A stretch of DNA of 64,000 bases from the NCBI GenBank assembly GCA_023475835.1, contig JAMCVM010000195.1:1-64000 (forward strand), read 5' to 3'. Positions within the stretch are counted from its first letter, which is position 1. The number at the start of each line of letters is the position of its first letter. This DNA comes from Bacillota bacterium. GTDB lineage: Bacteria > Bacillota > Sulfobacillia > Sulfobacillales > Sulfobacillaceae. This document shows positions 50,673-64,000 of the stretch, in pieces. The notes beneath the pieces are model-generated. The model saw only the letters and a list, made by a program, of their open reading frames with translations, ran no database searches and was not told the origin of the DNA. Position numbers and translations under genes: made by a program.

Positions 50673-50718
50673 TGACTCCAGGGAAGAGGGCGAGGCCGCT
50701 GCGAGGATCGCTTGTCCT

Positions 50719-50760
50719 CTTCCCTCTTCCCTCTTCCCTCTTCCCTCTTCCCTCTTCCCT
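50719..50760 (+). repeat. Heptanucleotide tandem repeat (CTTCCCT)6
   Basis: Six perfect, uninterrupted copies of CTTCCCT, 46 nt after the aldo/keto reductase stop codon. The perfect register suggests recent slippage. On the minus strand it reads AGGGAAG. Confidence 0.95.
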
Positions 50761-50787
50761 CGTCGGATCCATCCACGTTTTGTTGTG

Positions 50788-57559: not shown

Positions 57560-57762
57560 CGTGGGAGACGTAAAATGTATCGCGTCGTCAAGACCAGACG
57601 TAAACAGGTTGGCGAACTACGCCATGAGCGAACCTAACAAGGAACCCCAGACTCGATGTCGGGCGAGTGGCTAGAGGGCTTTTGACAAACCTTTTGCGAG
57701 TAAAGCTCACCTGAGTGGGTTCCTCGTAAGAATCCCCCGCCTTTAGGCGTGGGGAGTGTCAA
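57560..57762 (+). mobile_element. IS605/HEARO-type right end with omega-RNA-like structure, no nuclease gene
   Basis: The right end is typical of IS200/IS605-group elements: hairpin CCCCCGCC-TTTA-GGCGTGGGG (57734-57754), then AGTG and the cleavage-type tetranucleotide TCAA (57759-57762). Upstream is a structured segment: a long-range pair AGGAACCC (57640-57647) / GGGTTCCT (57717-57724) enclosing hairpin ACTCG/CGAGT, as in omega-RNAs of TnpB/IscB. A plus-strand frame ending at about 57674 could be the last codons of a TnpB. No transposase or nuclease domain remains, so this is a remnant or a non-autonomous element. Its last bases form the stop codon of the lipoprotein gene. Confidence 0.55.
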
Positions 57763-58943
57763 GGCCACCATAAACTGTTGAGAATGGTCGTCGCAACCTT
57801 CATGTCGGCTACCGGCACCGTAACCTGAGCCCTGACCATCCCCCCCTGCGGGGCGGTCACTGTGACCCCGTAAGTCCGGTACCCGCGAAGAGTCGTCGGC
57901 AGGGTGTAGGCGATGGCATGATCCGACAGCCAAAACAGCAAGGTCCCTTTCGGCACTTGCAATTCTGGGCTATCCGGCCCCGATACCGCATTCACGCGAT
58001 TGGATACGTGCCCGGCTAGATAACAACCCTCACAATGAGACGTGGTCACCACCACATCTTCCTGGGTATTGCTGCCGTTTTGTGCCATGGTCTCATCGTT
58101 CGCTGAAGCCGCCGCCCGATTCCAAGATTGGGGAATCGCCACGATCGGAGGATCTCCCAGCCACTGGTATCCCCGGGGCAGCGCATGGACATAGGGGGTC
58201 AAAAAGCTCAAATGAATGGGTGATCCGTTAGCCCAAAGCGTGCCATTTTCCCAGCCCAGAGCTTCAGCGGAGCCTATATCGGGGATGGTTACGCTTTCGC
58301 CGGTCGCCAGATCTAAAGCGGTACCGTGTCCAGTTCCCGAATCCCACCAGGCCACTACCCCTCTTCCCGATACAAAAGGCAGTCCACTAACCTGATCCAG
58401 GTCCCATTGATGCAACCGACGTACCGCCCCAGTAGTTAAGTCGACGCTCCACAAGACCACCGACCCTTCACCATTTGCCGACATGCTTTCCGTAATCAAC
58501 GCGTAGCCATCGGTAATGGCCACCAAATTCATAGATTGTCCACGAACAATTGGGTTCAAACGAGCCAACACATGAGCGCCTCGACTGAGCAAATTGCTTG
58601 AACTCTCTTTCGGAGAAGCTAATGCGACGATCCAGTTCGTCGGATCCGCTGACACCCAATGAGGGGGAAGAAGCAGCACCACTCCTTTGGGCGTATCCGC
58701 AATGCCGATGGTTTGGTGGCGCACCGACGCGGGGACCGATACCTGATAGGTCCTGCCATAGCGGACTCGGATGAGACTCGATGCCTTTTTTGAGGGTTGG
58801 CTGGTGATGATGGACACCTGTTTTATCAAGGCCGTCGACTTTGACTGAGTCAATCCAGCGATTGGCGATCCGGGGGCTCCACATCCAGCAAACATAAAGG
58901 CGCCAATTGCGGACAAGATCCATCGCGCCCAATGTTTTTTCAT
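57759..58943 (-). CDS. Hypothetical lipoprotein under ECF sigma control
   Basis: I do not recognise the family. The 394-aa protein has a lipoprotein signal (basic MKKHWARW, hydrophobic stretch, lipobox FAGC with C21). It then has a beta-rich, Gly/Ser/Trp-rich exported part with propeller-like repeats (GVVAWWDSG...GHGTALDLATGESVTI) and two Cys in SHCEGCYL. It is divergent from the ECF sigma gene and its promoter copies the sigma gene's own. The stop codon TGA is formed by the end of the adjacent IS605-like remnant, so the original C-terminus may have been a little longer. Confidence 0.7.
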   Translation of the reverse strand: MKKHWARWILSAIGAFMFAGCGAPGSPIAGLTQSKSTALIKQVSIITSQPSKKASSLIRVRYGRTYQVSVPASVRHQTIGIADTPKGVVLLLPPHWVSADPTNWIVALASPKESSSNLLSRGAHVLARLNPIVRGQSMNLVAITDGYALITESMSANGEGSVVLWSVDLTTGAVRRLHQWDLDQVSGLPFVSGRGVVAWWDSGTGHGTALDLATGESVTIPDIGSAEALGWENGTLWANGSPIHLSFLTPYVHALPRGYQWLGDPPIVAIPQSWNRAAASANDETMAQNGSNTQEDVVVTTSHCEGCYLAGHVSNRVNAVSGPDSPELQVPKGTLLFWLSDHAIAYTLPTTLRGYRTYGVTVTAPQGGMVRAQVTVPVADMKVATTILNSLWWP

Positions 58944-58978: not shown

Positions 58979-59006
58979 TAACGCCAGCGCCGGCTCTAAG
59001 GTTACA
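58979..59006 (-). promoter_or_regulatory. ECF-type promoter of the lipoprotein gene
   Basis: On the minus strand, TGTAACC, 16 nt, CGTTA, ending 35 nt before the start codon. It is identical in both boxes and spacing to the promoter of the ECF sigma gene 0.5 kb away. Confidence 0.75.
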
Positions 59007-59477
59007 CTAGCTAGCCAACCATTCGTTCCCGCCCTCTTCCCCGGTTGGCAGTGGAGCGAAAAGTTTTCGACGGAACACCACCCGCGCAGCCATTTGGTGC
59101 ACCGACTCCCGTGAAGCATCGCATCGACTAAAAAGTCAGTGACGGCTTTGGGCCAGTGGCCATTTGCTCCAAGACAGCAAAGCGCGTGAAGCGATGATCG
59201 CTAACCCCCTCGAGGTTATGTTGGCTGTCCAATCTCTTCGCGCGATCCCTTTAATCGGCAATCGGCCATTGCCACATTCTGGCGCATGGACGGTTTGAAC
59301 AAAGATTGCTCAAGATCGAAACTAACGTGTGGCAAATATTCCACCTGGACAGGGAAAACTCCTGCTCCGCGATTGAACTGTCCATTCCTAACCTAGTCGA
59401 TCCGTCCCAAATCCCTTTATGTGACATATCCCGAATCCGCTCGTCCATGGTAAGGTGATAGTAAAATTAACTCATCG
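59007..59477. other. Intergenic region between divergent ECF promoters
   Basis: About 470 bp between the two ECF-type promoters. The minus frame 59251-59448 has no ribosome binding site and no domain, so I do not call it. Nothing else is recognised. Confidence 0.4.
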
Positions 59478-59505
59478 TGTAACCTTTACGAGGATGCTGA
59501 CGTTA
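59478..59505 (+). promoter_or_regulatory. ECF-type autoregulatory promoter
   Basis: TGTAACC (59478-59484), 16 nt, CGTTA (59501-59505). The AAC-containing -35 and CGT-type -10 resemble promoters of Bacillus ECF factors SigX and SigW. It lies 24 nt before the sigma gene start. Confidence 0.75.
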
Positions 59506-59529
59506 TGATTGGGGAAGGGGTGAATCAGC

Positions 59530-60045
59530 CTGGCGGCCGAGCAGGGAGATCAAGAAGCTTTTGCCACCTTCATGGAGGCGCATGGTACCAAAGCGCTCCG
59601 TTTCGCCTTGCTGACCCTCAGGGACCGGGCAGAGTCGGAAGACGTGGTACAAGAGGCGTTTTTGCGACTGTGGCGTCATAGCCTTCGACGAGGACTAGAA
59701 ACGCTAAGTCCGGCATTGTTGTTTCATACCATTACCAACCTTTGCCGAGACCATATGCGTCACAGAAAACGACACCCGGAGGATTCCAGCGACTTGATGG
59801 AACTCGTCCACGCTGCTGCCGAGACAGGCGATCTAAGTGAGGAGTTGGCGGTTATGGAAGCCGTGATGCAACTGGAAATGGCCGAACGTCAATGCATTCT
59901 CATGTTTTATTATATGGATCATTCTTTGAAAGAAACGGCCGCCGCCCTCGGACTGAATGAACAGGCCGTCAAAACTCGACTATTTCGGGCACGACAGCAT
60001 CTGCGGCCGCTACTCGCTCCCATCTGGAAGGAGGAAATGTTGTGA
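59530..60045 (+). CDS. ECF RNA polymerase sigma factor, probable CTG start
   Basis: A 171-aa extracytoplasmic-function sigma factor. Region 2 is AEQGDQEAFATFMEAHGTKALRFALLTLRDRAESEDVVQEAFLRLWRH; region 4 is LEMAERQCILMFYYMDHSLKETAAALGLNEQAVKTRLFRARQHLRPLL. The first standard start (ATG, 59572) would cut off the conserved G-D-x-x-A-F segment. An in-frame TGA at 59521 leaves CTG 59530 as the best start, 9 nt after AAGGGG. The stop overlaps the next gene by 4 nt. It probably activates its own promoter and that of the divergent lipoprotein. Confidence 0.85.
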   Translation: MAAEQGDQEAFATFMEAHGTKALRFALLTLRDRAESEDVVQEAFLRLWRHSLRRGLETLSPALLFHTITNLCRDHMRHRKRHPEDSSDLMELVHAAAETGDLSEELAVMEAVMQLEMAERQCILMFYYMDHSLKETAAALGLNEQAVKTRLFRARQHLRPLLAPIWKEEML

Positions 60046-61553
60046 GCCAACCTCCAAAAAACGATCGTGTTGGCAAAGCCATTGATCGCGCCTTTGATCA
60101 GCTTGACGTACGCTGGGATAGCACCTGGGTACCCCACAGCCGTCATCGGACGCGTTGGATTGCCTGGACTGGAGCAGGCACGGCTGCTGCCGCGGCCGCG
60201 GTGGTGGCACTCTTTATTCCCTGGTCAGGAACACTGAGCAATCAACAAGTCAGTGTAAACGTCCCGGTAGCCGCGGCTCCATCCTTACCGGGGTCAGTGA
60301 CTCGCACCCTTCACGCTTTTCATGCGTCGGATTATGTCGTCGAGGGGATGGTCCCGGTCTACGCCTCCTATCCTGTGGTCAATCCTACCGCCCATTCCTA
60401 TTCCTTTATGGGAAGTTTCCGCTACGACGGAGTCAGCGGCAATCAATTGTCGCTGGTGGTGAATGCCGCGAGTCAAACGGTAACCAACGGGGTATTGTTT
60501 GCGTCCCAAAGTCCCGTCTACTCCTTCCGTCTGAAACTTGGCAATCCGGGACAACCTGTCACCGTGCTTCACTCGCAAGTGATCACGGCCGCGCCTACCC
60601 CGTCTCTTTTAGCTGGCACTTGGTATCAGGCAGGATCTAGCCAAATCAATAGTTTTACCGCCTCCGGTCCCATCGTCTATGCGACCCATGAAGGCTACTG
60701 GACCTCGATTTCAGGACAAGGGAACGGACTTTGGCAAGAGCCGCCGCAAGGTTCCCCGAGGTCCGAAACCGCAACCATCGCCGGCTTGCCCGCTGACCCG
60801 GCCCATGCCTTACTGGTCGAAGAAGCGTCGTCAGGTCTGAGCGAAGGCTATGTCACGGACAATGCCGGGCAGTCTTGGACCCGTTGGGATCTTCCCTCGG
60901 TGTCCTTTTCCAACTTAATTTCCATGAACCATCGATTTTGGGCAGTGATCAACGGCGGCCTGGAGGAGAGCCAAAGTGGGTCATCATGGCACTCGATATT
61001 GTCGGTCAACCCCAATAAATGGCAGGTCCAGGATTTTGCGGTTAATCCCGCCCATCCCGCCATGCTCGTCGCTGCCTTGGTGCCGCTGGCCGGAAACGGC
61101 ATCGGCCCCGTGCTGACCACCCAGAACAACGGACGCACCTGGCAGGAAATTCCCAACTTCCCGAACCTTGGAGTCGCTCCATCCGATATGGCCGTATTGC
61201 CCAACGGCAACATTTCGGCTTTAGTCGGCTTAACCAAGCCGGTATTAGTCGAGTACCATCAGAGTGCTCAAACCTGGCAAATTATCCCTGTGCCCAGGCA
61301 AGCCATGGGCGTCGGCACCGGTGAACTGACTGCCGCCCCCAACGGCAATCTAGTCTACGGTGCACCGGGTGGCAACATTTACGTGTGGGATCAGGCCCTG
61401 TCCGTGTGGCAAGTGATTGACGCTCCGGCCACGGCCCCGCTGAATGCAGCTCCAGCCAATCCCTTAGAAGCCATCGGCGACCAAGAAGTGATGGCCGGTT
61501 ACCAGTCGGGTTGGTATTATTTCGCTTTCAGTTCGACGCCTGCACCGCAATAA
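60042..61553 (+). CDS. Membrane anti-sigma/sensor protein with extracellular BNR-like repeats
   Basis: A 503-aa protein with about 38 cytosolic residues, one membrane helix (39-61, AWTGAGTAAAAAAVVALFIPW), then a long exported domain. That domain has repeated Asp-box/BNR-like units: GQSWTRWDL, GSSWHSIL, NNGRTWQEIPNF and QTWQIIPVP, as in sortilin-type beta-propellers. Overlap with the ECF sigma stop (GTGA) and topology suggest it is the anti-sigma factor, sensing a cell-surface signal. The N-terminus is short and lacks a zinc H-x3-C-x2-C motif, so the anti-sigma role is inference. Confidence 0.72.
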   Translation: MSQPPKNDRVGKAIDRAFDQLDVRWDSTWVPHSRHRTRWIAWTGAGTAAAAAAVVALFIPWSGTLSNQQVSVNVPVAAAPSLPGSVTRTLHAFHASDYVVEGMVPVYASYPVVNPTAHSYSFMGSFRYDGVSGNQLSLVVNAASQTVTNGVLFASQSPVYSFRLKLGNPGQPVTVLHSQVITAAPTPSLLAGTWYQAGSSQINSFTASGPIVYATHEGYWTSISGQGNGLWQEPPQGSPRSETATIAGLPADPAHALLVEEASSGLSEGYVTDNAGQSWTRWDLPSVSFSNLISMNHRFWAVINGGLEESQSGSSWHSILSVNPNKWQVQDFAVNPAHPAMLVAALVPLAGNGIGPVLTTQNNGRTWQEIPNFPNLGVAPSDMAVLPNGNISALVGLTKPVLVEYHQSAQTWQIIPVPRQAMGVGTGELTAAPNGNLVYGAPGGNIYVWDQALSVWQVIDAPATAPLNAAPANPLEAIGDQEVMAGYQSGWYYFAFSSTPAPQ

Positions 61554-63616: not shown

Positions 63617-63639
63617 TATGATCAAAGGGGGTCGTGGCT

Positions 63640-64000
63640 ATGGCCATCAACGGAGACGAGAAGCGTAAGCAAATTGTCGAATATATTCAAAGCCACCTTC
63701 GTCAAAATGGATATCCGCCTTCCGTACGGGAAATCGGAGCGGCTGTAGGATTGTCGTCCACGGCGAGTGTAGCTCGTCATCTTCGTCGCCTCGAGGAAAC
63801 AGGCCAGTTGTCCCATGCTCCCTTTAAGCGCAGAGCATGGCGCCTCGACGGAACGCCTCGCGATGCACAGTCATTACCGCTCGTAGGCCATATCCGTGCC
63901 GGAAATCCTATTCTGGCCCAAGAGCACGTGGAAGACCACGTGACGGTGTCGATGGATTTGTTTCGCCCGAGCGCGGACTTTCTGCTCCGCGTCAAAGGCG
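63640..64000 (+). CDS. lexA: LexA repressor, 5' part (cut by the window edge)
   Basis: The first 120 codons are present. The N-terminal winged helix reads KRKQIVEYIQSHLRQNGYPPSVREIGAAVGLSSTASVARHLRRLEETG. LPLVGHIRAGNPILAQEHVED contains the self-cleavage bond A87-G88. The catalytic Ser/Lys pair lies beyond the window. The ATG has AAAGGGGG 8 nt upstream; an in-frame GTG 6 nt earlier is too close to it. It represses SOS genes and probably itself via the palindrome in front. Confidence 0.93.
   Translation, partial: MAINGDEKRKQIVEYIQSHLRQNGYPPSVREIGAAVGLSSTASVARHLRRLEETGQLSHAPFKRRAWRLDGTPRDAQSLPLVGHIRAGNPILAQEHVEDHVTVSMDLFRPSADFLLRVKG

Follow-up and report, generated by a model that had tools for sequence, protein, structure and literature searches.

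Two matching ECF-type sites in the 64,000-nucleotide stretch of DNA analysed here (the window) most probably serve as promoters for the sigma factor encoded at 59530-60045, which would read them together with some 40 further targets as the core of an autoregulated ECF/anti-sigma envelope system, a reading to which we give a probability of about 0.86. Promoter recognition by this sigma factor, the anti-sigma function of its membrane partner and the existence of a surface signal are what we infer from the enrichment of the motif, the conservation of the promoters and a sensor that is built like Tt-TolB. The features concerned are the following.

57759-58943, minus strand: lipoprotein gene, 394 aa, lipobox FAGC
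58979-59006, minus strand: predicted ECF-type promoter of the lipoprotein gene (-35 TGTAACC at 59000-59006, N16, -10 CGTTA at 58979-58983)
59478-59505, plus strand: predicted autoregulatory ECF-type promoter (-35 TGTAACC at 59478-59484, N16, -10 CGTTA at 59501-59505)
59515-59523, plus strand: Shine-Dalgarno sequence AAGGGGTGA, duplex energy -11.1 kcal/mol
59530-60045, plus strand: ECF sigma factor gene, proposed CTG start at 59530, 171 aa plus stop
60042-61553, plus strand: putative membrane anti-sigma/sensor gene, 503 aa, its start overlapping the ECF stop

A sequence-only reading of the window had reported TGTAACC-N16-CGTTA in front of the ECF gene and, inverted and with equal spacing, in front of the lipoprotein gene, and both copies are present at these positions, as TGTAACCTTTACGAGGATGCTGACGTTA on the plus strand and TGTAACCTTAGAGCCGGCGCTGGCGTTA on the minus strand, with identical boxes and differing 16-base spacers. 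On average 0.02 matches are expected, according to 100 dinucleotide shuffles of the window, not one of which contained two. AAC at -35 and CGT at -10, together with autoregulation, are hallmarks of ECF factors (PMC8103513), and both elements are found here before the sigma factor's own gene. The lipoprotein ATG lies 35 nt downstream of the minus-strand promoter. The segment between the divergent promoters (59007-59477, about 470 bp) is long for such a region and contains no ORF of at least 80 aa. Elsewhere in the window there are a perfect tandem repeat of CCTCTTC (50716-50761, 6.6 copies) and, at its end, what appears from the translation to be the start of a LexA-like repressor (63634-63999).

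The ECF protein carries Sigma70_r2 (residues 15-81) and Sigma70_r4_2 (107-158) Pfam domains joined by a short linker and has no sigma3 domain, as in group IV of the sigma70 family. Strong orthologs (at least 54% identity) occur throughout families f1, f2 and f3, and the promoter, with up to two mismatches, precedes 33 of 34 orthologs spread over three families of the order, the spacing being N16 in 32 of these 33, while shuffled upstream regions reach this level about 0.3 times per 34. In the examined f1, f2 and f3 genomes the sigma and sensor genes are adjacent and occur once per genome, except in the 71%-complete G024; Sulfobacillus thermotolerans, S. harzensis and S. benefaciens are among the named relatives. 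A search of 41 genomes found homologs of the lipoprotein in 11, for the most part encoded divergently to the ECF gene, and seven of the nine tested are preceded by the promoter (up to two mismatches, N16). The lipoprotein had no match in Pfam, NCBIfam or PHROG, and its structure model is weak and all-beta (mean pLDDT 68) with scattered matches. Probable autoregulation and the proposed link between the lipoprotein, the ECF factor and the propeller sensor thus have good comparative support, from both sets of conserved promoters and from the presence of the ECF/sensor pair in every family of the order tested.

It could be argued that the promoters are read by another ECF sigma factor and that the ECF gene of the window is merely one of the targets, as the genome encodes several ECF-like proteins (four matches) and ECF factors may overlap when their -35 elements are alike. 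We consider this improbable, given that the motif has almost the same position upstream of this ECF gene in 33 of the 34 orthologs, including those from genomes with few other copies, that the gene has a single ortholog per genome with a constant sensor partner, and that the motif is absent upstream of the ECF gene on contig C146, one of the three other ECF-like genes. Even less probable is that the motif is the site of a DNA-binding regulator instead of a sigma promoter: a two-box sequence of fixed spacing can be an operator and some motif genes encode small winged-helix proteins, but the two boxes are neither direct nor inverted repeats of one another, the site points toward the gene, AAC-N16-CGT is an ECF hallmark (PMC8103513) and the motif precedes an ECF gene throughout the order.

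A genome-wide motif search, which had been proposed as a check, was carried out on the 3.8 Mb draft assembly (fragmented into 246 contigs, with an estimated contamination of 4.3%) and revealed enrichment before genes. With spacers of N15 to N17 allowed, the genome has 11 exact TGTAACC/CGTTA sites, every one of them N16, compared with two exact matches to a reversed-pattern control. Allowing one mismatch gave 50 sites at N16 against three at N15 and five at N17, the reversed-pattern control at N16 giving 11. Five of these 50 copies were rejected as regulon sites because they are located in group II introns (RF02003 was found in both of the copies searched) and have the form TGTAACCT..GAAATCCA[CG]TCGGAGTTA, one mismatch off the promoter motif:

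L053, 1501-1528: intron copy
L054, 1501-1528: intron copy
L092, 226-253: intron copy
L099, minus strand: intron copy
L107, 1990-2017: intron copy

The flanks of the 45 retained sites are also conserved, with T/A after the -35 box and G/A before the -10 box.

Gene context was evaluated in the loci fetched around the sites. An ORF was scored if it was 200 aa or longer, had a hydrophobic segment at its N-terminus and contained no more than one other, hydrophobicity taking the place of a signal-peptide predictor. An ORF of this kind lies directly downstream of 31 of the 45 sites (median distance 51 nt) and of none of the 11 reversed-pattern controls, and the N-terminal hydrophobic feature occurs in 6 of the 41 window ORFs of that size (Fisher p 3e-7). 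The regulon had been described as local, which is too narrow: some 40 copies of the promoter are spread over the genome, most of them in front of genes for secreted proteins. In the sister genome G001, 67 sites were counted at N16 and 10 at N17; among 20 sites picked there as not shared with the genome of the window, 10 passed a slightly looser secreted-ORF test with unlimited further segments, and some of the others were borderline. The N16 count barely exceeds the N17 count in most relatives outside the genus, as would be expected if the two-promoter unit were real and the other genomic copies had arisen by chance, yet we see almost no room for this explanation and reject a chance origin because of the sharp preference for N16 in this genome and its sister and the secreted-protein genes behind the sites. 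N16 sites outnumber N17 sites by 45 in this genome and by 57 in the sister genome, by 11-23 in three more genomes and by 4-8 in the other five, the excess being small in most relatives outside the genus. Since the excess is large in this genome and its sister and lower elsewhere, we read the large regulon as lineage-specific, genus-level growth around a fixed core.

Among the products encoded behind the motif there are a PBP transpeptidase, an Acyl_transf_3 protein, a GH84 glycosidase, a GDSL-like/DUF459 protein, an SbsC/cellulase-like protein and many beta-propellers of the YCF48/Sortilin/BNR type; similarity clustering of the products gave one cluster of 12 and another of six. That the candidate targets are secreted, lipid-anchored and wall-active suggests a sigma factor regulating the envelope and secretome. 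The cluster of six is a family of secreted proteins encoded behind the motif, several members having an APTW(M/A)P segment, and the three members tested had no Pfam match:

L047, 343-1374: member of the six-member secreted family
L051, 609-1460: member of the same family
L157, 3523-4368: member of the same family
L060, 1580-2422: member of the same family
L090, 2435-3223: member of the same family
L091, 78-1883: member of the same family

One site in the genome of the window lies directly upstream of a gene for a small OmpR-type winged-helix protein (PF00486; L057, 1918-2349), and in G001 three sites (L276, L286 and L288) precede small ORFs homologous to it. Given their repeated position immediately after the motif, the regulon may in turn control additional regulators.

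The 503-aa partner is predicted to consist of a cytoplasmic N-terminus of about 32-40 aa, a membrane helix (about residues 33-57), an extracellular beta domain (about 96-180) and then a YCF48-like beta-propeller. The BNR-like repeats originally noticed in this protein fit its AlphaFold2 model (mean pLDDT 77.5, with the N-terminal 79 residues below 50), whose best PDB matches are the YCF48 structures 5ojp and 2xbg (E 2e-10), although no PF14870 (YCF48) sequence match above the gathering score was obtained. The same fold characterizes the YCF48 photosystem II assembly factor and Sortilin-like BNR propellers, which give their Pfam family to many regulon products; unlike YCF48, the sensor is membrane-anchored and its host is non-photosynthetic. 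A comparison at E 1e-4 did not connect the sequence of the sensor with those of the regulon propellers, and we therefore do not claim that sensor and targets are paralogs. Its N-terminus has a conserved motif, roughly [IV]GxxxDRAL...LGLYFxxxWHP; Pfam detected no class I anti-sigma domain in the protein, and the HxxxCxxC zinc motif is absent from an alignment of 16 sensor N-termini. The sole hint at a curated anti-sigma domain is a weak, sub-threshold match of residues 29-92 to NCBIfam CU044_5270. In Actinobacteria, ECF factors of the SigE family (TIGR02983) associate with CU044_5270-type partners, and TIGR02983 is the second-best NCBIfam match of the ECF protein described here; the matches of both proteins fall below the curated cut-offs.

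The closest tested system is Tt-RpoE1/Tt-TolB of Thermoanaerobacter tengcongensis, in which residues 1-39 of the anti-sigma factor bind the sigma factor and the latter transcribes its own gene (PMC3397946). There too the ECF gene is followed directly by that of a membrane anti-sigma factor with a short N-terminus (39 aa in Tt-TolB), a single membrane segment and a large domain outside the cell, an architecture that the modelled sensor appears to share. By analogy with this pair we commit ourselves to the view that the 503-aa protein probably acts as an anti-sigma factor. The two systems differ in that the extracellular domain of Tt-TolB is of the TolB type and that of the sensor YCF48-like, and in the passages of PMC3397946 consulted neither a regulon of secreted propellers nor an unusual start codon is reported. 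The arrangement also resembles the SigW/RsiW envelope-stress system of Bacillus subtilis, which comprises an ECF factor, a membrane anti-sigma factor and an envelope regulon, and the SigW -35 element ATTGAAACCTTT (PMC8103513) is close to the TG[T/A]AACCTT found here. In contrast to SigW/RsiW, the -10 element is CGTTA and the partner is a propeller sensor in which Pfam finds no class I anti-sigma domain; the ECF protein scores far below the SigW cut-offs (72.0 of 209 bits for NF007223, 59.4 of 243.1 bits for TIGR02948) and is thus not classed as a SigW ortholog. Our literature searches yielded nothing direct on ECF factors in Sulfobacillus or on beta-propeller anti-sigma factors.

In the mechanism that we postulate, the short cytoplasmic N-terminus of the sensor would hold the sigma factor while the extracellular YCF48-like propeller senses some signal at the surface. 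Once released, the sigma factor would recognize both window promoters, the plus-strand one driving the sigma/anti-sigma operon in a positive feedback and the minus-strand one driving the divergent lipoprotein gene, and would activate about 40 further promoters, those of genes for secreted, lipid-anchored and wall-active proteins. In its working this would resemble a standard autoregulated ECF envelope regulator, with AAC at -35, CGT at -10 and a membrane partner encoded downstream (PMC8103513); its unusual features are the YCF48-type sensor, the genus-level expansion of secreted targets and a probable conserved ACG/CTG start codon.

With regard to this start codon, the TGA within the Shine-Dalgarno sequence (59521-59523) is in frame with the sigma gene and ends any reading that enters from upstream; the ECF frame continues with ATC AGC CTG. 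In the genome of the window there is no ATG, GTG or TTG in this frame between the promoter and conserved region 2, and an in-frame ATG first appears at 59572, after residues that are conserved. The CTG at 59530, 6 nt after the Shine-Dalgarno sequence, is shared by five genomes from three genera, and the recurrence of TGA plus CTG in these genomes makes a frameshift or assembly error unlikely. In 21 other members of the family the corresponding codon is ACG, placed 6-8 nt after the Shine-Dalgarno sequence; over all these genomes the CTG and ACG codons lie 6-10 nt after a strong Shine-Dalgarno sequence. The codons compared are located as follows.

59515-59532 (window), L169-L187, L192 and L196: start-codon region, 16 codons before the [GAS][TDG][KR] anchor

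This ACG shows no synonymous Thr change in any of the 21 genomes, counted without regard to relatedness, whereas at none of the 18 further conserved four-fold positions in these genes does the share of the commonest codon exceed 0.62; ACG makes up 31% of the Thr codons in these ECF genes. The f2 ECF gene has an ordinary GTG start.

Sequence comparison of this kind makes it probable that the start is genuinely non-canonical. A start at ATG 59572, or in the relatives at a TTG or GTG by the Shine-Dalgarno sequence, would turn CTG and ACG into ordinary internal or untranslated codons; the great majority of genes start with ATG, GTG or TTG, a protein beginning at ATG 59572 would retain nearly all of Pfam region 2 (match from residue 15), and most relatives have a TTG or GTG three codons upstream of the ACG. 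We nevertheless hold such starts to be unlikely, as residues upstream of ATG 59572 are conserved and its equivalent is Ile, Leu or Val without start potential in about 8 of the 21 ACG-type genomes, while the TTG/GTG of the relatives abuts the Shine-Dalgarno sequence with zero spacing, is replaced by TGG or GTT in 5 of the 21 and is followed immediately by TGA in one genome. The absence of synonymous change at the ACG, the only conserved four-fold codon of which this is true, also argues for the CTG/ACG start. Whether this start (ACG in most genera, CTG in three) was selected across the Sulfobacillus family to limit the production of the sigma factor before positive feedback begins, which would throttle this regulator both translationally and by the propeller anti-sigma factor, is a tentative proposal, less likely than the non-canonical start itself and to which we give slightly less than even odds. 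Literature searches gave nothing direct on ACG starts in sigma genes. If confirmed, a conserved ACG/CTG start would be rare in bacteria, and gene callers restricted to ATG, GTG and TTG would misplace the start of this regulator.

For the extreme acidophiles of the Sulfobacillus family, these results outline a regulon of about 40 promoters, open to testing, for an uncharacterized envelope sigma factor and would tie dozens of unnamed secreted propellers and lipoproteins to a single sensor whose fold is similar. Since the regulon appears to have grown in one genus while the sigma factor, the sensor and the promoter are fixed across the order, the system may offer a clear case for studying how sigma regulons expand.
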